25,839 bases of DNA from a virus. The notes below the pieces were generated by a model. It searched no databases, was not told the DNA's origin, and saw nothing but the letters and a program-made list of their open reading frames with translations. Location: positions 4,612 through 30,450 of IMG/VR virus record IMGVR_UViG_3300030101_000953. One strand, written 5' to 3'. Of this stretch, positions 15,834 through 25,064 are shown in pieces. A program made the translations under genes and the position numbers. The number at the start of each line of letters is the position of its first letter. The first letter of the stretch is position 1.

Positions 15834-17930
15834 CTAAGTCAAATGAATATTTTCCATTTCTAACCAATTATATCCCATTTCTAAATCTACACCAAATGGA
15901 ACATCCCATTTTACATCATAATAACTCTCAAAAGTGCTGGTCACATCAGACATAGCTCTGTGAGCAAGTTTAGATACAATATCTTCCTCACCGGGATATA
16001 CATCAATTACCACCGAGTCGTGTACAGTATTGATAATAAGAGACTTAATTCCTTTTTTGCTAAACGCACTTTGTAATCGAATGAGAGCGAGCGGCATAAT
16101 GCAACCACCTGCCAAACCTTGTACGGGATAATTTTTAATAGCGGGTGCGTTACTGGCTGCGCCACTCGCAAGACGCTCAGTGCCCGGAAAAGCAAATTGT
16201 TGACCCGTATACAAAGTAACAGAGCCCTCAGTGATAGCCTCAGCTTGTAAGTCCTCATGCCATTTTGCCAACCGTGGGTATTTATCCATGAAATCTCTGT
16301 AGTAAGCCATTTCACTAGGCGTCCCATGTGTGCCACCATATAACGGTTTAAACGTGTGTGCTTTCGCCATAGTCCTTTCATCTTTAGTTACATCCTTTTC
16401 GTCTTTGTCAAATATAATAGAAGCTGTATATTTGTGAACGTCACTGCCGTCAAGTATATCTTTTTTCATAACTTCATCACCAGATAACTGTGCAGCAACT
16501 CTAAATTCTAGTTGTGAATAGTCAGCTTGTAATATTTTGCCACCTTCAAACCTAGACACGACTACAGCACGAACAGGAAATGTATTTCCTCGTGGCTGAT
16601 TCTGAAAGTTAGGGTCAGAAGAGGACAATCGTGTCGTTCTAGTCACACATTGATTATATTTAGGGTGCAAAATAGAATTTGGCTTGACATTTCTCTCAAT
16701 GCCACCAACAAAACTGGACAAGTATACATCAACAGCGTTAAGACGTATCGAACATTGCAAGAACTTCTCTGCAGTTTTATTGCCTTTACTCTTAGCATCA
16801 CCTAAAAGACGCATCAAAGTAGTCTTATCTGTGGCAAACCCATTAGCAGATACATCTCTAACATCTCTTGGGTTCATTGTGAGCCCTGCAACTGCGGCAT
16901 GTTTCTTCAAAAGATAGCCTGCACCTTTACAAATCCTACATTTTGACTCTTTTTTCCACAGTTGCCCATTCTTTTTTCTCTTAAAGAACTTACCTTTGCC
17001 AGAACAGGTGTTGCAGTGTAGTGCAGTTGTCTTGTGAATGCGTTCTGTCATACCTTTTATAACATTTACAAAGGCGCCCACGGACATTCTTGGTCTAGGA
17101 AGTGGCTTACCCTTGTCATTTAAACCAATATTGAACATTTGTGCCCAGTTTTTCTTATTTTTCACCTTACGTGAGTAAATCATCTGACTAATCTGCTCCG
17201 GCGAAGCAAAGTTTACTGGTGTATCCCCCATAACTTCACGCATAATCTCGTGCATAGTGCGTTCGAGCTCAAGCTTCTCTTTGCGATACGCCTGCTTAAC
17301 ATCCTGCAGAGCTTGCAAGTCAATCTTAATACCATTGCGTTCGATTGTGGCTAATGTGAATAAGAAGCCATTCATTAGTTTAAGATGCTTCTCCATCACA
17401 CTGTTTTTAAACAGTTTTTTCTGATGCTCATACAACTCTCTAGTAGAAATTATGTCAGCTTTGCCGTATTCCTCTACAATTTCACAAGGCATGCGGTCGA
17501 ATCCAACTCCTCTTGTCAAGTAATCTTTTGTCAAGTCAGACTTTTTTAAACTGACTTTTCTTCTGATACAAGCATCATGCAAACTAAGGCTATACTTCTG
17601 CCCTTTCAATAATAAATATTCTCCAATCATAGTGTCATAAACTCTGCCACTATAACTAAAGCCGCTTTCCCACAGCCAAACTAAATCAAATTTTATGTTA
17701 TGCCCCACTAACAGAGTGGTATCATTTAGTATTTGTTGAACTTGTGAATGAGCTTGGTGTAAATCAACTCCTTTTTTCTCATGGTAGAACCACACGAATT
17801 GTGGTGTTAGGTTATCACAAGTGTTATACTGTACAGAAACTAATCTGTTATTGGGGTGAAACGGAGTCGGGTCTGCTCGCTTAGTCTCACCTACGTGGAA
17901 GGTAGTTTCCACATCTAATGTTGTAATCAT
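15834..17930 (-). CDS. polA: family A DNA polymerase with DnaJ-like zinc-finger insertion
   Basis: A 698-residue replicative polymerase. The 3'-5' proofreading domain shows LDVET (D6, E8), GHNIKFD (D82) and YGKAD (Y155, D159). The polymerase domain shows TTRLSSSDPNFQNQP (432-446), motif A LQADYSQLEFR (D470), motif B RTMAKAHTFKPLYGG (R519, K523, F527, Y531) and motif C NTVHDSVV (H637, D638). Between them, residues 306-338 hold two CxxCxGxG repeats (C306/C309 and C331/C334), a DnaJ-type zinc finger on the thumb side. A polymerase with a partial DnaJ central domain was described for SAR116 phage HMO-2011. F527 sits at the E. coli F762 position, associated with virulent phages. The start overlaps the helicase stop (ATGA). 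Confidence 0.95.
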   Translation of the reverse strand: MITTLDVETTFHVGETKRADPTPFHPNNRLVSVQYNTCDNLTPQFVWFYHEKKGVDLHQAHSQVQQILNDTTLLVGHNIKFDLVWLWESGFSYSGRVYDTMIGEYLLLKGQKYSLSLHDACIRRKVSLKKSDLTKDYLTRGVGFDRMPCEIVEEYGKADIISTRELYEHQKKLFKNSVMEKHLKLMNGFLFTLATIERNGIKIDLQALQDVKQAYRKEKLELERTMHEIMREVMGDTPVNFASPEQISQMIYSRKVKNKKNWAQMFNIGLNDKGKPLPRPRMSVGAFVNVIKGMTERIHKTTALHCNTCSGKGKFFKRKKNGQLWKKESKCRICKGAGYLLKKHAAVAGLTMNPRDVRDVSANGFATDKTTLMRLLGDAKSKGNKTAEKFLQCSIRLNAVDVYLSSFVGGIERNVKPNSILHPKYNQCVTRTTRLSSSDPNFQNQPRGNTFPVRAVVVSRFEGGKILQADYSQLEFRVAAQLSGDEVMKKDILDGSDVHKYTASIIFDKDEKDVTKDERTMAKAHTFKPLYGGTHGTPSEMAYYRDFMDKYPRLAKWHEDLQAEAITEGSVTLYTGQQFAFPGTERLASGAASNAPAIKNYPVQGLAGGCIMPLALIRLQSAFSKKGIKSLIINTVHDSVVIDVYPGEEDIVSKLAHRAMSDVTSTFESYYDVKWDVPFGVDLEMGYNWLEMENIHLT

Positions 17931-19063
17931 ACTGTATATCTATTCCTTTTTGTATCAAGATTGCAAACTATGTTACCATGAAATCCACTTAACTTATTTT
18001 TAGATATAGTCAAATATCTACGTGTGTCATCATTGTTAGTGATGTCATTCTTACCGATGCCTATGATTAGGTCAGCTTCAGCAGCTTTACCCGTCTTACT
18101 ATTCTCCATCATAGCGTAAGTTACGTGTGTGCGCTCCTCTGCATCAGCAGATGCTTGACTAATACCAATACCAAAAAGCTTGTGCCTTTTGCATATCTCT
18201 CTAAACTTTGTGTATATGCTACGAAGCTTTTCATCTGTTCTCGCAAAGTTACCATTGACATTAACTTTATCTAACTGGTCAATAATCAAAATATCGGGCT
18301 TCTTGTGCTCACAATAAACATTTAACCACTCAATAGATGCGTCCACTCTATCGACCATAGTTATATTAGGCGCGATTTGCAAAAATTGTGAACGAGCCTG
18401 AGACTTGTTTTGGTACAATTCTTCATGCGTGTAGCCGGTGTATGAACACACAGAGCGAACCATAGTACGACGAGCAGGCTCTTCATTAGTTATAATGTGA
18501 ACATTAGCGCCTTGTGAACAGAATCCGCCCGGTGATGCCGCAAGTGACACATAGAAAGCAGTCTTACCAACTTCTGGTCTGGCAAAGGCAATCATAAACT
18601 CACCTGCCTTACCACCACGCACATGCTTGTGCAGACTAGGTATGTTAAACTCCCAACAACTTTCATTCTGCTCAAACTCTAACAGAGTGTCTAAGTCAGT
18701 TGGTATCTCCTCATAGTCATCTTTCGGCACAAAACCTTCCTGTGACTTCTCTACAATACTTTTTATATCAAGCAGTTTGTCAGTCGAGCCCTCCATAATA
18801 GATAAAGCCAAGTCAGCTATCCGGCGCCCCACCTCTTGTTGCCACAATGTACTGACCACATCTGTAGCCACATCCTCTCCTATATGAGGTAAACCATCAA
18901 TGTCATCAAGCATATCGGACACAATCTCTCTCTTTGCACGTGTTGCAGTAGGATTATCTATTCTATACAGCTCACGCAGTTCAAGTATGGTTAGGTCTCT
19001 TTCATATCTTTTATGACCTTTCTCTAACGTATCATGTAAGTCTCGTAACTCATCTGGGAACAT
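17927..19063 (-). CDS. DnaB-type replicative DNA helicase
   Basis: A 378-residue RecA-fold helicase that unwinds the fork ahead of the polymerase. ARPEVGKTAF (161-170) is the Walker A loop in the DnaB style, where the first position is Ala. ITNEEP (191-196) supplies the catalytic acid, PDILIIDQLDKV (256-267) is Walker B, and GISQAS (300-305) and ENSKTGKAAEADLIIGI (320-336) are the later helicase motifs. About 140 N-terminal residues precede the motor domain. Unlike T7 gp4, primase is a separate gene just upstream. GCAGGTCT precedes the ATG; the end overlaps the polymerase by 4 nt. Confidence 0.9.
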   Translation of the reverse strand: MFPDELRDLHDTLEKGHKRYERDLTILELRELYRIDNPTATRAKREIVSDMLDDIDGLPHIGEDVATDVVSTLWQQEVGRRIADLALSIMEGSTDKLLDIKSIVEKSQEGFVPKDDYEEIPTDLDTLLEFEQNESCWEFNIPSLHKHVRGGKAGEFMIAFARPEVGKTAFYVSLAASPGGFCSQGANVHIITNEEPARRTMVRSVCSYTGYTHEELYQNKSQARSQFLQIAPNITMVDRVDASIEWLNVYCEHKKPDILIIDQLDKVNVNGNFARTDEKLRSIYTKFREICKRHKLFGIGISQASADAEERTHVTYAMMENSKTGKAAEADLIIGIGKNDITNNDDTRRYLTISKNKLSGFHGNIVCNLDTKRNRYTV

Positions 19064-19122: not shown

Positions 19123-19890
19123 TTATTTGTTGTTCAATACTAATCTCTCTATCTCCTCTGGGCTAAAATATTTCAAATCATCATCTACTCTGACTATACC
19201 ACAAGACACATAGTAAGCCAAATGCTTTTGCATCAATAATGCCTTACGAGTTGCGTCTGGGTCAAGACAAATGTGAATGTGGTCGAATTTACGAAGTGAG
19301 CTCACGTTCACATCACGTAGGTTTGTACCAAGCAATGCTATGCCGGTAGCAACGGGGGATATGGCGCAGGCACTTGCAGCATCTTCAACAAGGACGCCTA
19401 CTTTACTGTTACCGCAAGTGAACAGACGATTTGATTTGCCATATCTGTACCACTTAGGTTTTGTGAATCGGTTCAGACTTCTACCAACAGCATCACAAAC
19501 GTAGTGATTATTTTTTATCATAAATACAACTCTATCTTGCTTTGAGTCATACATTATTTCTGCATCACGATTATTATAAGCTGTCATGCAATTATTTTTT
19601 TCTACATAGGAACGAGCTTTTTCGTTCTGTGTAAAAATTGTGAATGAGTCCGGGGTCAGGAAATTTTCCAATACATCACTACTGTCACGTATTTTTTCAC
19701 GTATCTCGTCAGAGCTACGAGTAAAATTTTTTATACCTTTTATTTTACAGTTAGCACTGTAGCAGTTCCAAAGAACTTTTCCATTGACACGAGAGATTGT
19801 AAACGTATTACGTTTATGACAACTGGGGCAGTTGGTTCTAATTGTTTCATTACCTTGTGGTAAATTATCTTGAATAAACTTGTCGAGCAT
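19123..19890 (-). CDS. DNA primase with zinc-binding and TOPRIM domains
   Basis: A 255-residue protein that makes RNA primers for lagging-strand synthesis. The N-terminal zinc module has C21-x2-C24 (NCPSCHKR) and C43-x4-C48 (NCYSANCKIKG), as in T7 gp4 and bacterial primases. The catalytic TOPRIM domain has E169 (GVLVEDAASA) and the metal pair D210/D212 (CLDPDATRKA). KPKWYRYG (144-151) lies between. It is about the size of the primase half of T7 gp4, with the helicase encoded separately 59 nt downstream. First gene of the replication operon, preceded by a promoter candidate and AAGG nine bases before the ATG. Confidence 0.9.
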   Translation of the reverse strand: MLDKFIQDNLPQGNETIRTNCPSCHKRNTFTISRVNGKVLWNCYSANCKIKGIKNFTRSSDEIREKIRDSSDVLENFLTPDSFTIFTQNEKARSYVEKNNCMTAYNNRDAEIMYDSKQDRVVFMIKNNHYVCDAVGRSLNRFTKPKWYRYGKSNRLFTCGNSKVGVLVEDAASACAISPVATGIALLGTNLRDVNVSSLRKFDHIHICLDPDATRKALLMQKHLAYYVSCGIVRVDDDLKYFSPEEIERLVLNNK

Positions 19891-19931
19891 CTTATATAAC
19901 CTTATGTAGCCTGCGGCGTTTAGCCGACCGT

Positions 19932-19960
19932 ATCATAGATTTCAAAAAACGTCAAGACAA
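19932..19960 (-). promoter_or_regulatory. sigma70-like promoter candidate for the replication operon
   Basis: On the minus strand TTGTCT and TATGAT are separated by 17 nt, a fair match to TTGACA/TATAAT. It lies about 42 nt upstream of the primase ATG, directly after the terminator of the upstream cassette; the -35 element overlaps the terminator T-tract by two bases. The leader then carries a small inverted repeat (CGGC/GCCG). It would restart transcription for the replication genes using host RNA polymerase. Confidence 0.5.
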
Positions 19961-19984
19961 AAAAAAGCCCCTCCGAAGAGGGGC
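19959..19984 (-). terminator. Rho-independent terminator after the metallopeptidase gene
   Basis: Read on the minus strand: GCCCCTC, tetraloop TTCG, GAGGGGC, then eight T. The seven-base GC-rich stem with a stable UUCG-type loop and U8 tract is a textbook intrinsic terminator. It ends transcription of the cassette at 20063-24966. Confidence 0.92.
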
Positions 19985-20002
19985 AAGTTGGGAGGAAAGA
20001 AC

Positions 20003-20058
20003 CCTAGCTAAGATAAGCTAGGATTACGCCCTCTCCCCAAAAGGAGAAAGGGAGAGGG
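20003..20058 (-). other. two tandem hairpins in the 3' untranslated region of the cassette
   Basis: Between the metallopeptidase stop and the terminator lie two perfect inverted repeats. CCCTCTCCC/GGGAGAGGG (20029-20037 with 20050-20058) has nine base pairs and a 12-nt loop and begins 4 nt after the stop. CCTAGCT/AGCTAGG (20003-20009 with 20016-20022) has seven pairs and a six-nt loop. With the terminator they give three stem-loops in a row on the same transcript. They could protect the 3' end, be processing sites or form a small RNA; none of these is shown. Confidence 0.6.
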
Positions 20059-20062
20059 TATC

Positions 20063-21487
20063 TTAGAAGTCCATTTCTTCTGCGTCTGCCTCATAAGCAT
20101 CAATGACTAACTTGGCAATATCTCTCATGGACATATCAGCTTTATCAAAAGTCATGAGAACACGTTCAATCTTCATCTCCTCTGACTCTTTAGTAAAGAA
20201 GCCATCAGCGATATCGAAGGGAACCATGTTGTCTATGGCATACCTATGTCTGTCAACAGAGGACTGAATAGTTTTGAACTGATTCTTTCTGCCCTCGTCA
20301 GTAGCACCTAACTTGAGAGACTTTTGCTGAGGAACTTTGTACGACTGAGAGTATCTGAACTCGTCATCTTCATCATACGGAAAATCCCAGTAAGTATCAG
20401 CTCGTCTGCCATAGCCGTAGTAGTTGCCCATACCCCATGTTTCTCTGGCTTTTGGGTCACGCTTGACGGGTAGCTTTGACCAGTTAACTTTGAACACAGC
20501 AGGTATCAGCATACGTTCGAGCCATTCAAGGTCAAACTTCTCTGAACTAGTGTGCTGACGTTTGTAGCCGACAGAAATATTAGTACACTCTGGTATCAAT
20601 GAAGTGTAGCTAGCGCTGTCAGTAAATACACCAGAGCTCTTGGACATCTGTTGTTTAGGTGGTAAGTTTTTGTTAAGCTCGCCACACAACGCATTTGCAA
20701 ACTCGTCAGAACAGCATCTGCCACCGGTTTGGCTAGTGATTACATCACCATAGTCTTGTCTGTCGAAAGCAACACAATAGTCGATGTCCTTGACAAACTC
20801 TGGTTTGTTTTGAGCAAGCCACTTAGAACCGACAGCACCACACTCTTCACCATGATGAAACACATACAAGCCAGGAATACCTTCCTCAATCATACGACAC
20901 ATGATATAGCAACCGAGCTTGTCATCAGCACCTAAAATATTTCTTGTTAGTTCTCTGTATTGCTTGAACTCACAATCAATGTCAAGATTTGTCCACTCTT
21001 CAAACAAAGTATCGTCTGTGCCGTGAAGTTTGCCTCTGTACACAGTGTAGTTATCGAAGTCTGTATTACACTTAGCTTTGACTACTCTGTTCAAATCCCA
21101 TGTATCTTTAACTTCTTTTTCACCAATCACTAGCTTTCGCTTTGGTTTGACGATACCACAATGAATCCAGCCGTCATCTTCAAAGAGTTGTCTAGGTTTA
21201 CCTCTGCTGCCAGCGTCAACAGTGTCTAGGTGACAACTAAACATAACCCTGCTTTCTTTCTTGCCGTCAAGCACAACTGTGCTGAGATTACCTTTCTCAT
21301 CAGTATAGAACTTATTATGAGGAAGATAGTCAGATATTATCTTTATAATATTATCCTCACCGAAGCTCACATGAGATTGTGTTGTAAGTAAATCATACAG
21401 CAACGGCGCCATAGTTTTACCTCGTTCAACGACAGTCATGTCTGACAACTTCTTTTCTTTTAAATTACTTAATTGATAATTATACAT
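20063..21487 (-). CDS. zinc metallopeptidase, M20/M28/M42-like
   Basis: A 474-residue protein with the co-catalytic zinc site of this aminopeptidase/carboxypeptidase group in order: FSCHLDTVD (H86, D88), LGADDKLG (D188), HHGEECG (E214 base, E215), VAFDR (D242) and GYKRQHTSSE (H312). GVFTDSASY (286-294) is also typical. About 100 residues are inserted between HxD and the bridging Asp. The last 130 residues (Tyr-rich, then helical and acidic, ending EEMDF) are not part of the peptidase fold as known to me. No signal peptide, so it should act in the cytoplasm on peptides or N-acyl compounds. Last gene of its cassette, directly after the 679-residue gene (TAA then ATG), with AAAGGAG upstream. Substrate unknown. 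Confidence 0.85.
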   Translation of the reverse strand: MYNYQLSNLKEKKLSDMTVVERGKTMAPLLYDLLTTQSHVSFGEDNIIKIISDYLPHNKFYTDEKGNLSTVVLDGKKESRVMFSCHLDTVDAGSRGKPRQLFEDDGWIHCGIVKPKRKLVIGEKEVKDTWDLNRVVKAKCNTDFDNYTVYRGKLHGTDDTLFEEWTNLDIDCEFKQYRELTRNILGADDKLGCYIMCRMIEEGIPGLYVFHHGEECGAVGSKWLAQNKPEFVKDIDYCVAFDRQDYGDVITSQTGGRCCSDEFANALCGELNKNLPPKQQMSKSSGVFTDSASYTSLIPECTNISVGYKRQHTSSEKFDLEWLERMLIPAVFKVNWSKLPVKRDPKARETWGMGNYYGYGRRADTYWDFPYDEDDEFRYSQSYKVPQQKSLKLGATDEGRKNQFKTIQSSVDRHRYAIDNMVPFDIADGFFTKESEEMKIERVLMTFDKADMSMRDIAKLVIDAYEADAEEMDF

Positions 21488-23527
21488 TTACTTATACTCC
21501 TTTTTAATTATTGCGTCACGTAAGTTATCGAAGGCTTTGACGCTTGAGCCTTCTCTAGGTAAGTCAACGAATTGACTTTCCAATTCTTGTTCGTACTCAT
21601 AGAGCACATCTAGGTTAGTAATAGTTTCCAACCCTCTGACCATAGGCACATGCTTCATATCCGATATGTGTTGCACAGGAACAGCCTCCATCCACAAACC
21701 TCTGTATGCAAAGTGTTTGTCAGCCAGTAAGGACTGGATAAGAAAGTTGTGTCCTGCTTTACGATTCAAAAGTTGATTACTAAAGCTCGCTACAGTTACA
21801 TCATATCTAGTGCCCTCGTACATAACAGTATGAAAAAGTCTGTTGTATTGATGGGAGTGTGATACATTTGGAAGATGCACACCACAATCATAAACAGTAT
21901 CTCCGACAAGGTCATAGTGGTTTCTGTGCGAGAATGCACGTTGATACGTTTTCCAAGTGTCCAACTCTGGAAGAGCCCACGGGGTATTCGTAAGCACATT
22001 ACCATGAAGCAAACAGTTGAGACGATTACTGAAGTAAACACAATCTTGGTAGTCATGAATAGTGTCGTTGTAGAAATTATGACTGTAAAAACGCCAATCA
22101 ATATTAGTACCAGTCTGATACAAACGGTGATTGTCATTTACAGCACAGCCTTCACAACAATAATACGTGTCACTAACTTCCATGTAGACCATATCATCAC
22201 AATGATGTTCTTCACCACAGTTGGGGCACTCAGTATAGTCATTGTCACGGTCATTGTGACGAGAGAAATAACCATCTGTTTTAGCAAGGTTGCACATCTC
22301 GTAACCCAATGCTTTAATCTTACTGTTTCCATCATTTTTAAGAATAAATGTAGTTACATTTTCTTTTTTCTTTGCAAAGATACCATAATTGAATGGATGC
22401 CAGTCAAAGTAAGGAAAAGGTGTAACACGACTGCCACCCATTCCATGAGTAGGCACAGACCACTCAACATCATAGTCAAATATCCTTTGCTTTTTATCAA
22501 CGGAGTAACCACAAGGGAATGTCACATCAATGCCCCGTTCTCTCATTTCTTTGATAAGAAGTTTCTGGAACTCGCTTGTAACACCATACACCCTAGTAGC
22601 GACACGCTGTTTAGTTTTTGGATTGCGATAGTAGATGCCACGAGCTAGAATGATGCCTGCTCTCTTCATGTACATACCGAACGCAACTGGACAATCGCCA
22701 TACCAATCAACTGGTTGGACGTTCTCAACAAATGCTTTGTTTTTGTTGTCATTGTACTTAGAGTAGCTGTCAACGTACAATCTGTCGTGAGCTTTACGGC
22801 TGTCCATACAAGACGAAGGACTACCTTGTTTGTAGATATACATTCGTCTAAAGCCTTTCTTACCACTAGCAAAGTGTAGTGTAGGAGGCTTTGTAATAGA
22901 AAGCATACGAGTGGCAACAATCTCTATCCATTGTTGGTCTTTGATTGGCTCCCACTCTTTAGACTTATCAGAGAAACATTCTAGGTAATTAGCAAGAGCA
23001 CGACCAAGCGTTGTCACTTGTCGTTTCTTCAACCTAGATATGCCACGTTGTACGGGCAACCATCTCTTTTGTCTGTGCTCACACTTCAAGTCATTAGCAA
23101 TCTCATTCTGTATAGACATAGATACGCTGGGGAAGTATGGGTTCTCTTTCTGATGATAACTAGCTCCTCTACGAGCTACATCTACATGTCCCATAGCATC
23201 AGCAGGAAGATTAGGAAACAGAACTACTTGCTTCTTATCTTTGTCCCAGCACATAACTCTGGCTACACGGAAGTAGTCTGCTCTAGGTCTTGCATTAGAG
23301 CTAGGAAGTGTGTCCATAGCCATGACTACTTGATACAAAGTGGTCATGAACCTCTGCATATCTTTCGAGAGTATCGTATACATACGAGAAGATACAACTT
23401 GAACTGGGTGTTTCTGCAAAGAAAGTTCTGCAAAATATTGTAACGGGACGTCATTCTCAGAACAAAAGTTATTTATAAGTTCTTCATAACGCCCCATGAT
23501 TTCATCTAAGATTTTTTCATCATACAT
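21488..23527 (-). CDS. large protein with internal zinc ribbon, unknown function
   Basis: A 679-residue protein, the largest of the cassette. The middle contains GSPSSCMDSRKAHDRLYVDS (about 235-254), then CPVAFGMYMKRAGIILARGI (279-298) and RVYG; a similar SCM...IIARG...RIY pattern is remembered from other uncharacterised large-phage proteins (not searched). A zinc-ribbon-like cluster follows at 434-461: C434, C437, H441/H442, C443, C457/C458, C461. The C-terminal third is aromatic- and His-rich with frequent HN and HY pairs. No helicase, nuclease or transferase motif recognised. GGAGG lies seven bases before the ATG. Coupled to the metallopeptidase downstream. Confidence 0.7.
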   Translation of the reverse strand: MYDEKILDEIMGRYEELINNFCSENDVPLQYFAELSLQKHPVQVVSSRMYTILSKDMQRFMTTLYQVVMAMDTLPSSNARPRADYFRVARVMCWDKDKKQVVLFPNLPADAMGHVDVARRGASYHQKENPYFPSVSMSIQNEIANDLKCEHRQKRWLPVQRGISRLKKRQVTTLGRALANYLECFSDKSKEWEPIKDQQWIEIVATRMLSITKPPTLHFASGKKGFRRMYIYKQGSPSSCMDSRKAHDRLYVDSYSKYNDNKNKAFVENVQPVDWYGDCPVAFGMYMKRAGIILARGIYYRNPKTKQRVATRVYGVTSEFQKLLIKEMRERGIDVTFPCGYSVDKKQRIFDYDVEWSVPTHGMGGSRVTPFPYFDWHPFNYGIFAKKKENVTTFILKNDGNSKIKALGYEMCNLAKTDGYFSRHNDRDNDYTECPNCGEEHHCDDMVYMEVSDTYYCCEGCAVNDNHRLYQTGTNIDWRFYSHNFYNDTIHDYQDCVYFSNRLNCLLHGNVLTNTPWALPELDTWKTYQRAFSHRNHYDLVGDTVYDCGVHLPNVSHSHQYNRLFHTVMYEGTRYDVTVASFSNQLLNRKAGHNFLIQSLLADKHFAYRGLWMEAVPVQHISDMKHVPMVRGLETITNLDVLYEYEQELESQFVDLPREGSSVKAFDNLRDAIIKKEYK

Positions 23528-23538
23528 AATTTACCTCC

Positions 23539-24189
23539 TTACTTGTTTGATATCCAATGATGAATTGTTGTTTTACCAACAACTGCAATACTTTTGCCAA
23601 GTGCCACAGATGAGATAAACGGATTGATAGAGCTGACAGTCTGCTTACCTGCATCTCTGTCAGAGTCATTGGCAGTCATTCGCATCACCATACATTGACT
23701 CTCTGGTAGCTCTGGCGCGAAGCCAAGTATCATGTACATATTCTTGTCTCGTGGGAACATGATAATCTTACCAATATTCCTAGCTTGATTGATGTCAAGT
23801 TCTTCAATACTGGTAAGTTCAACTGGCTCGACTTGAAAATGATATGCACCTCTGATTACCACAGTTTGTGATTCCGTTTCGGGATTGCAACTGAGAGTCA
23901 AACTGCCGAAAGCCTGAACCTCGTCCGTACGTGCATCAGCCATAGGATTGCGTAACAAAAGGGACACACGCATAAAAGTGCTTCTGTGCCCACTCTGGTT
24001 AGGATTACCTGTAAGACCAAGAGAAGCGTAATGGTTAGAGCCATTGGTGTACTTGAATATCATTCCTGGTGGCACACCTTTACGGTCTACAGTCTTGTTA
24101 AGTGCGAAGTCGAACCCCTCGCCATTTAGTGTCTTAGCATAGAAATCATGCCAATGGTCGGTAGTGTAAGTTTTAGTATCTCCAGACAT
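23539..24189 (-). CDS. hypothetical protein, 216 aa
   Basis: Starts at ATG 24189 (MSGDTKTYTTDHWHDFYAKT), seven bases after AAAGGAG; an upstream TTG in frame overlaps that ribosome site and is not used here. The protein is beta-rich and soluble, with GMIFKYTNGSNHYASLGLTG (about 42-61), VRGAY/VVIRGAYHFQVEPVE and a C-terminal VALGKSIAVVGKTTIHHW. AVVGKT superficially resembles a P-loop but lacks the G-x4-GK[ST] spacing. No family is recognised. The start overlaps the upstream gene by 17 nt, and 11 nt separate its stop from the next gene. Confidence 0.65.
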   Translation of the reverse strand: MSGDTKTYTTDHWHDFYAKTLNGEGFDFALNKTVDRKGVPPGMIFKYTNGSNHYASLGLTGNPNQSGHRSTFMRVSLLLRNPMADARTDEVQAFGSLTLSCNPETESQTVVIRGAYHFQVEPVELTSIEELDINQARNIGKIIMFPRDKNMYMILGFAPELPESQCMVMRMTANDSDRDAGKQTVSSINPFISSVALGKSIAVVGKTTIHHWISNK

Positions 24190-24715
24190 TATAGTCACTC
24201 CTTTCAAAATAATAAGTTGATACGTAGTTTTTAGTTTGTGGTGAAGCCTGCAATCTTTGAAGACAAAAAGATATGTAGGCTACATGATGCAACATAGTGT
24301 TGCCGTTGCCATCACGCCAGTCTTTCCAATCATCTGCGTCGTTACTGAAATAATTCTTAATTGTAGACGAACTGAATTGACTAGGGTTTTTTACTCTTGA
24401 AGCTACATCATTGTACATTGCTTGTATTGTATCACTACGAGTTCTCTCCATTTCGTCAATGTGTGGCTTCATGTCGTAACATGGCGTCAACTCGTAACTC
24501 CATGCTTTTAACACTTTATCATGTGGTTGCCAATTACCTCTATTTCTGTGGTAATGACTAGGAACATAATAGTTCTTGTATGACAACATACGAACAGAAT
24601 ACTTCCGTTCTTTTGATATATAATTTTCGACACGACCTAAGCCTCTCACTTGCGTAGTTCTACTCGAGTAGAATACATCAACAAGCTGATTGTCTCTATA
24701 AGCTCTGGGCATCAT
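24173..24715 (-). CDS. hypothetical protein, 180 aa
   Basis: The frame begins with two ATG codons (24715 and 24712) after AAAGGAGGTCT. The second has the more usual spacing; the first forms ATGA with the stop of the zinc-ribbon gene. The protein is basic, rich in Tyr, Arg and Asn (KNYYVPSHYHRNRGNWQPHD near 48-67), with a helical middle (HIDEMERTRSDTIQAMYNDV) and an end NYVSTYYFERSDYNVWRY. No cysteine cluster, membrane helix or known motif. Function unknown; cassette membership is clear from the couplings. Confidence 0.65.
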   Translation of the reverse strand: MMPRAYRDNQLVDVFYSSRTTQVRGLGRVENYISKERKYSVRMLSYKNYYVPSHYHRNRGNWQPHDKVLKAWSYELTPCYDMKPHIDEMERTRSDTIQAMYNDVASRVKNPSQFSSSTIKNYFSNDADDWKDWRDGNGNTMLHHVAYISFCLQRLQASPQTKNYVSTYYFERSDYNVWRY

Positions 24716-24966
24716 AGACCTCCTTTCTCTGGGTCAAAGTTTTTAGGATTACATGCGACTTCATAAATCTTGTCACGTCGCACAGGTTGATAAGCACCTT
24801 TGTGCATCGGCACTAGCGTGAATTGCTGTCCAGTAGAAACAGGAATAGCTTCAGCGCAACTAACACAAAGATGAGGATAATGACAGGCAACAAGCCTGCG
24901 CTCATAGGGATAAAAGTCCCCACACTCAGTACATACACACTCGACCTCACTTTCTTGATACGTCAT
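24712..24966 (-). CDS. small zinc-ribbon protein
   Basis: An 84-residue protein with a compact cysteine cluster: VECVCTECGD (C10, C12, C15), RLVACHYPHLC (C28, C34) and VSC (C37), resembling a zinc ribbon, followed by a basic linker (GAYQPVRRDKIYEVA) with a further Cys. Such small ribbons bind nucleic acid or proteins. It is the first gene of the cassette, with AAGGAG nine bases before the ATG and a promoter candidate upstream. It could be a regulator or a partner of the larger zinc-ribbon protein; neither is shown. Confidence 0.65.
   Translation of the reverse strand: MTYQESEVECVCTECGDFYPYERRLVACHYPHLCVSCAEAIPVSTGQQFTLVPMHKGAYQPVRRDKIYEVACNPKNFDPEKGGL
24713..24726 (-). promoter_or_regulatory. 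strong ribosome binding site, AAAGGAGGTCTATG
   Basis: This site precedes the 180-residue gene and repeats the AGGTCTATG string found before the ssDNA-binding candidate (with TATATG) and the helicase. Because the core is only three bases from the first ATG, the second ATG (24712) may be the true start. Confidence 0.65.
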
Positions 24967-24996
24967 TGAAATTTTCTCCTTTTATTGTTATCCCCT

Positions 24997-25025
24997 AATA
25001 TACCAAAAAACCCCACCCTAAGCAA
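24997..25025 (-). promoter_or_regulatory. sigma70-like promoter candidate for the five-gene cassette
   Basis: On the minus strand TTGCTT and TATATT are 17 nt apart; the -10 is close to consensus and the -35 weak. The -35 lies in the loop and the spacer in the 3' stem and T-tract of the upstream terminator, so the DNA serves both signals. The ATG of the zinc-ribbon gene follows about 31 nt after the -10. Confidence 0.45.
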
Positions 25026-25037
25026 ATAGAGTGGGGT
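25005..25037 (-). terminator. Rho-independent terminator between the small membrane genes and the cassette
   Basis: Minus strand: ACCCCAC, a 14-nt loop, GTGGGGT, then further T residues. Seven base pairs, mostly GC, followed by a run of six T including the stem end. It lies 28 nt after the stop of the 31-residue membrane protein and closes that small-gene operon. Confidence 0.85.
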
Positions 25038-25064
25038 CATTTAGCAGTGAACTGTGAGCTTGTT

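Follow-up and report, generated by a model that had tools for sequence, protein, structure and literature searches.

The closest described relatives of the system reported here are known as separate components. The protein family PHROG_4191, labelled 'peptidase', occurs in Autographiviridae of Klebsiella, Vibrio and Pectobacterium; it is annotated singly, and the partner gene, encoding what we here call an SCM protein, is listed there merely as a hypothetical protein. Peptidase T and the TET aminopeptidases of the MH clan have the metal-ligand pattern of the peptidase studied here, but are themselves free-standing cellular enzymes without an SCM partner. GNAT acyltransferases align with the core of the SCM proteins, which differ from them in lacking the R/QxxGxG/A loop, in an invariant cysteine within a Ser-Cys-Met (S-C-M) motif and in carrying LIM-like repeats. 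Rac of phiKMV-like phages is a GNAT-type protein whose action ends in the proteolysis of a host protein; it is a single protein, is thought to use host proteases and needs an acetyl-CoA pocket (PMC7552054). In contrast, the SCM protein has a phage-encoded peptidase as its partner and no acetyl-CoA pocket motif was seen in it. PHROG_6980, a family of unknown function, is matched by gp30 of Vibrio phage KF1 and by some SCM proteins but not by ZR679, the SCM protein of the present locus. Phage amidoligase operons were also compared, and no amidoligase Pfam match was found in the five proteins of the locus; one BFVD match so named aligned over 108 columns only.

The window, that is the whole stretch of 25,839 nucleotides that was analysed, is part of a 30,450-base IMG/VR virus record (IMGVR_UViG_3300030101_000953). 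Its DNA polymerase carries a DnaJ-type zinc domain and shares 39-46% identity with the polymerases of Pelagibacter phage HTVC033P, of Roseobacter CRP phages and of HMO-2011, which places the phage in the HMO-2011-type lineage of marine podoviruses. Upstream of the primase lie five genes (Table 1) which the first-pass annotation had read as one operon, and this reading was borne out, as all are on the minus strand and overlap or abut one another with a single short gap. The word TTCACAA, said there to be missing from the coding strand of the block, indeed occurs 17 times in the window and not once in the block, with a chance of about 2% in a post hoc count. The GC content and base composition of the block do not stand out as foreign.

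Table 1. Features of the five-gene block and its neighbours, in window positions
Feature	Position	Strand	Basis or remarks
Intrinsic terminator 5' of block	25009-25038	(-)	12-pair hairpin and T-run; weak promoter-like word after it
zf84, small CxxC...CxxC protein	24712-24966	(-)	ORF
u180	24173-24715	(-)	ORF; 4-nt ATGA overlap with zf84
u216	23539-24189	(-)	ORF; 17-nt overlap with u180
ZR679, SCM family: GNAT-like core and LIM-like zinc repeat region	21488-23527	(-)	HMM match; 11-nt gap to u216
Invariant S239-C240-M241 motif of ZR679	22805-22813	(-)	S and C 100%, M 99% in 105 family members
ZR679 zinc ribbon CPNC...CCEGC, residues about 434-464	22136-22228	(-)	Sequence; aligns with LIM-like repeats of the family
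pep474, predicted MH-clan (M20/M28/M42-like) di-metal peptidase	20063-21487	(-)	PHROG_4191; abuts ZR679
Intrinsic terminator 3' of block	19967-19984	(-)	7-pair hairpin, then T-run
Promoter of primase-helicase-polymerase operon	19930-19962	(-)	Fused to 3' terminator; TTGAC(A/G)-N17-TA and TGn
Primase	19123-19890	(-)	Neighbour outside the system
Helicase	17927-19063		Downstream of primase
DNA polymerase	15834-17930		Downstream of primase

Compared with the near relatives L002 and L003, all five block genes had dN/dS values of 0.17-0.39 (u180, 0.36-0.39), indicating genuine coding sequences on which purifying selection acts; the values were several times higher than those of the replication-side genes tested (0.006-0.11). 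The three small genes were found solely in the clade of the window. Homologues of zf84 (32-49% identity) occupy the equivalent location in L103, L104, L106 and L108, those of u180 (33-41%) were detected in L106 and L108, with ORFs of equal size in L103 and L104, and those of u216 (23-25%) in L104 and L106, while neither zf84 nor u216 matched any phage record. The wider conserved unit is the SCM protein with the peptidase, and the best explanation is that the block forms a single transcription unit with a two-protein core and three clade-specific small helpers.

The peptidase pep474 belongs to PHROG_4191 (4e-68), with whose members it also shares the gene order before the primase. As judged from its residues, it is an MH-clan metallopeptidase with all ligands intact, since H86, D88, D188, E214, E215, D242 and H312 (the HxD, D, EE, D and H ligands) are each 100% conserved in 120-122 relatives. 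The Pfam score for M28 lay just over the cut-off (22.7 vs 21.3) and that for M42 just under it (22.6 vs 23.2), and its relatives switch between both. Over its C-terminal half the peptidase shares 99% identity with that of L005, whereas the whole protein is only about 76-80% identical to those of L002 and L003, which suggests recombination inside or near the gene. Profile matches to solved structures included Peptidase T (3gb0, 4e-14) and TET1 (2cf4, 5e-9), and the nearest solved structures were Peptidase T, tripeptidase and TET aminopeptidase. This kinship, together with how common the peptidase is in environmental phages, would fit a role in amino-acid salvage, in which host peptides, selected or delivered by the SCM protein, are degraded to supply phage synthesis. 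We regard such a role as quite unlikely, as salvage does not call for a partner that is near-obligate, evolves fast and keeps Cys, Tyr, Arg and Asp invariant, and bacterial elements that would have no obvious gain from it also carry the pair.

The second core protein, ZR679, gave no match to phage records in tblastn searches with the whole protein or its core alone, and its family came to light only through the neighbour of the peptidase gene in Vibrio phage KF1 and Rhizobium phage Pasto. These neighbouring genes, and that of a 735-kb megaphage, have the S-C-M motif in common with ZR679. The SCM family as defined in the present analysis was obtained from a profile of the genes beside the peptidase which was then iterated, and the iteration united the KF1, Pasto and megaphage genes with ZR679 in one family. 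Its conserved positions are S-C-M, a Tyr, an Arg and PY-x-D (Ser, Cys, Tyr, Arg and Asp being invariant); ZR679 meets the profile and has them all, as S239, C240, M241, Y276, R296, P372, Y373 and D375. No Pfam or NCBIfam model covers the family, which matches only PHROGs of unknown function; PHROG_6980 was matched by KF1 gp30 (4e-38) and by 11 of 49 SCM proteins, with ZR679 and most others falling short of it. The first-pass annotation had called ZR679 a zinc-ribbon protein, and the ribbon is present; the protein belongs to a large family with a GNAT-like core.

A sequence search of the PDB with the SCM profile gave zinc-finger noise alone. For the canonical member L073 a structure was predicted at pLDDT 94; the best structural neighbours of its core are GNAT acyltransferases, with a best VIA Z of 6.9 over 80-90 residues, short of the Z of 8 at which the match would convince, and among the VIA rows shown for the core nearly all were GNAT-type. 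The C-terminal repeats of L073 resemble LIM zinc domains. L073 does not show the R/QxxGxG/A loop for acetyl-CoA: where it would lie, after strand 4 and before the next helix, the sequence is YGDAVRM (by DSSP; consensus YGDxxR), and for this reason the family was not filed as GNAT. In the viral structure library the top matches were uncharacterised relatives alone. The AlphaFold model of ZR679 itself has a pLDDT of 49, and its fold is therefore presumed from homology to L073. Besides, 56 of 101 SCM proteins end in Ala and 24 of these in Ala-Ala, compared with 16 and 6, respectively, among 107 peptidases. An ssrA-like explanation of the terminal -AA was dropped, as ATGA overlaps may account for many of these ends, which are also seen in 57 of 563 other ORFs.

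The two core genes are very probably near-obligate partners that are co-inherited in the order SCM then peptidase. Among 75 peptidase loci with at least 1 kb upstream, 74 had an SCM gene, which in 69 lay directly upstream on the same strand; when loci were picked through SCM instead, 20/20 bacterial and 28/29 uncut viral ones had the peptidase downstream. Near-duplicates are present in these samples, which consist of the best matches from larger sets. The distance matrices of both protein trees were correlated (Spearman 0.85 vs a permutation maximum of 0.18, 93 pairs), a correlation that also reflects shared genome history. As for the exceptions, L074 and L220 were without a partner in the locus DNA examined, another ORF intervenes in L072, the SCM gene lies apart in L077, L081, L086 and L088, and no SCM gene accompanies the distant peptidases found in phages of Thermus and Lactococcus. 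L077, L086 and L088 form a separate phage group, in which the peptidase (an LGADCT variant) and SCM genes are on opposite strands near a terminase-like gene.

The pair is carried by virus genomes of about 40 to 735 kilobases and also by bacterial mobile DNA. In Autographiviridae of Klebsiella, Shigella, Vibrio and Pectobacterium the order is SCM, peptidase, primase, helicase and polymerase, and in Drulisvirus, Maculvirus and Phimunavirus the pair was seen to precede the primase. It was also found in Rhizobium and Bradyrhizobium phages, and in Rhizobium phage Pasto it is at the left end, an early position, beside ArdA. Megaphages carry several copies of the pair genes: four SCM and two peptidase genes stand side by side in the 735-kb megaphage LR756501 (L009 987-8906), and several related records have 4-6 peptidase copies. 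One phage contig holds two SCM-peptidase pairs in tandem (L089 6962-11342). Among bacteria, genomes of Sphingomonadales and Rhizobiales carry the pair, and in several of these cases a ParB-like protein is encoded on one side of it and a DUF7146-Toprim protein on the other. At one bacterial copy an AbiEii-type gene is close by (L187 9638-10681), and this, with the spread of an overlapping gene pair on mobile elements, is what a toxin and its antidote might show, one protein harming the cell and the other restraining the harm. It is very improbable, however, that the pair works in this way, for both proteins are large and enzyme-like, their genes stand apart in the opposite-strand phage group above, and the pair is found in lytic phages.

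We compared relatives at the locus, as the first-pass annotation had proposed, and the block proved to vary and to be missing from the lineage at large. It stands at the equivalent place in the nearer relatives, those with a primase identity of 52% or more. All seven diverged IMG/VR loci L102-L108, with primases 52-54% identical, encode the peptidase; where the upstream DNA reaches far enough, as in L103, L104, L106 and L108, the block is found in order, though u180 and u216 are not always detectable by sequence there and similar-sized ORFs stand in their place. In 25/25 more distant loci with more than 3.5 kb upstream, both SCM and peptidase genes are missing, and neither was found in the stretches of HTVC033P, CRP-3 and HMO-2011 that were read, the pre-primase region included. 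The block is thus accessory to the HMO-2011-type lineage and core to the clade of the window, within which it evolves much faster than its neighbours: identity is 26-27% for SCM and 40-47% for the peptidase, compared with 64-70% for the polymerase and 67-77% for the helicase.

The intrinsic terminators reported to flank the block were confirmed and are the top two of our terminator scan. Each was said to be fused to a promoter candidate, and a promoter is supported beyond chance at the downstream junction only. There the hairpin, T-run, TTGAC(A/G)-N17-TA and upstream TGn are kept in L002, L003 and L005 and also, with equivalent hairpins, in the diverged L103, L104 and L106, and this conservation argues that the junction is real. 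The upstream junction has TTGCTT-17-TATATT, an 8/12 promoter-like word read by eye and outside the matches of the scan, and the region holds about as many promoter-like matches as chance would give (27 vs 23.1 +/- 4.5 expected); the junction is identical in L003, while L002 keeps the hairpin alone in a diverged form. Around the block, an ORF between peptidase and primase in L106 (7529-7963) resembles, by eye, a cell-wall hydrolase, and a tRNA-Glu (UUC) gene that is absent in the window lies directly upstream in L103 (2950-3024), L104 (2801-2876) and L108 (1251-1326). In another phage clade (L024, L029-L032, L042, L051, L052 and L060-L062), tRNA-Arg (UCU) is located about 115 bases past the peptidase.

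The position directly upstream of primase, helicase and polymerase in several phage groups, and beside the DUF7146-Toprim protein in Sphingomonad elements, could mean that the pair acts on the primase or replisome of the phage, by processing or by regulation. This appears clearly unlikely, as the conserved terminator and promoter separate the pair from the primase, it has no primase next to it in Pasto, in BDU-MI-1 or in the megaphage stretch, and the HMO-2011-type relatives replicate without it. A GNAT-like protein combined with a peptidase and present on bacterial mobile elements recalls detoxification or immunity, in which the two arms would destroy a peptide or peptide-nucleotide antibiotic or a defence signal, much as MccE and MccF inactivate microcin C. 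MccF is, however, a serine peptidase of another clan, the two enzymes act independently and no small-molecule gene lies near the pair, so that we consider detoxification decidedly improbable.

Co-inheritance, accessory status, an early place in several of the phages and rapid evolution lead us to favour, at somewhat under even confidence, the reading that the pair is an early host-takeover or counter-defence module whose proteins both act on one substrate. The SCM protein would use its LIM-like zinc repeats to dock on a host protein or peptide, its GNAT-like core would modify or hold this substrate around the invariant Cys, Tyr, Arg and Asp, and the peptidase would then trim or release the terminal residues. 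We infer counter-defence solely from position and evolutionary rate; PADLOC models gave no match for the five window proteins or for two other SCM-peptidase pairs. A further reading, which we hold to be rather unlikely, is that SCM is a cysteine-dependent GNAT-fold transferase working without acetyl-CoA that tags a defence or host protein, the tag being completed or reversed by the peptidase; it may use aminoacyl-tRNA, a possibility raised by the tRNA genes that abut the block in two clades.

The first-pass annotation had put the five genes forward as a candidate for an undescribed accessory system, with host takeover, anti-defence or peptide/protein modification as possible roles. Their co-occurrence and movement as a block, absence from the wider lineage and lack of any ordinary annotation but 'peptidase' agree with an accessory system, with the refinement that the core, and the widely conserved unit that moves, is the last two genes alone. 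No Pfam, NCBIfam or PADLOC model describes the SCM-peptidase pair and no paper on it was found in the open-access literature; on this absence the pair is new as a system, with component folds that resemble known ones. It appears to be an undescribed, widespread two-part viral tool, the function of which could still prove ordinary. Hundreds of sequenced phages, many of them of Klebsiella, carry an unexplained gene labelled 'peptidase', and this gene has a near-obligate partner from an unnamed family, the pair occurring in small podoviruses, in megaphages and on mobile elements of bacteria. A vague annotation thereby becomes a two-gene system that can be tested and for which candidate active-site residues are named, and, if the transferase reading is true, it would be a new two-enzyme protein-modification system common to phages and bacterial mobile elements.
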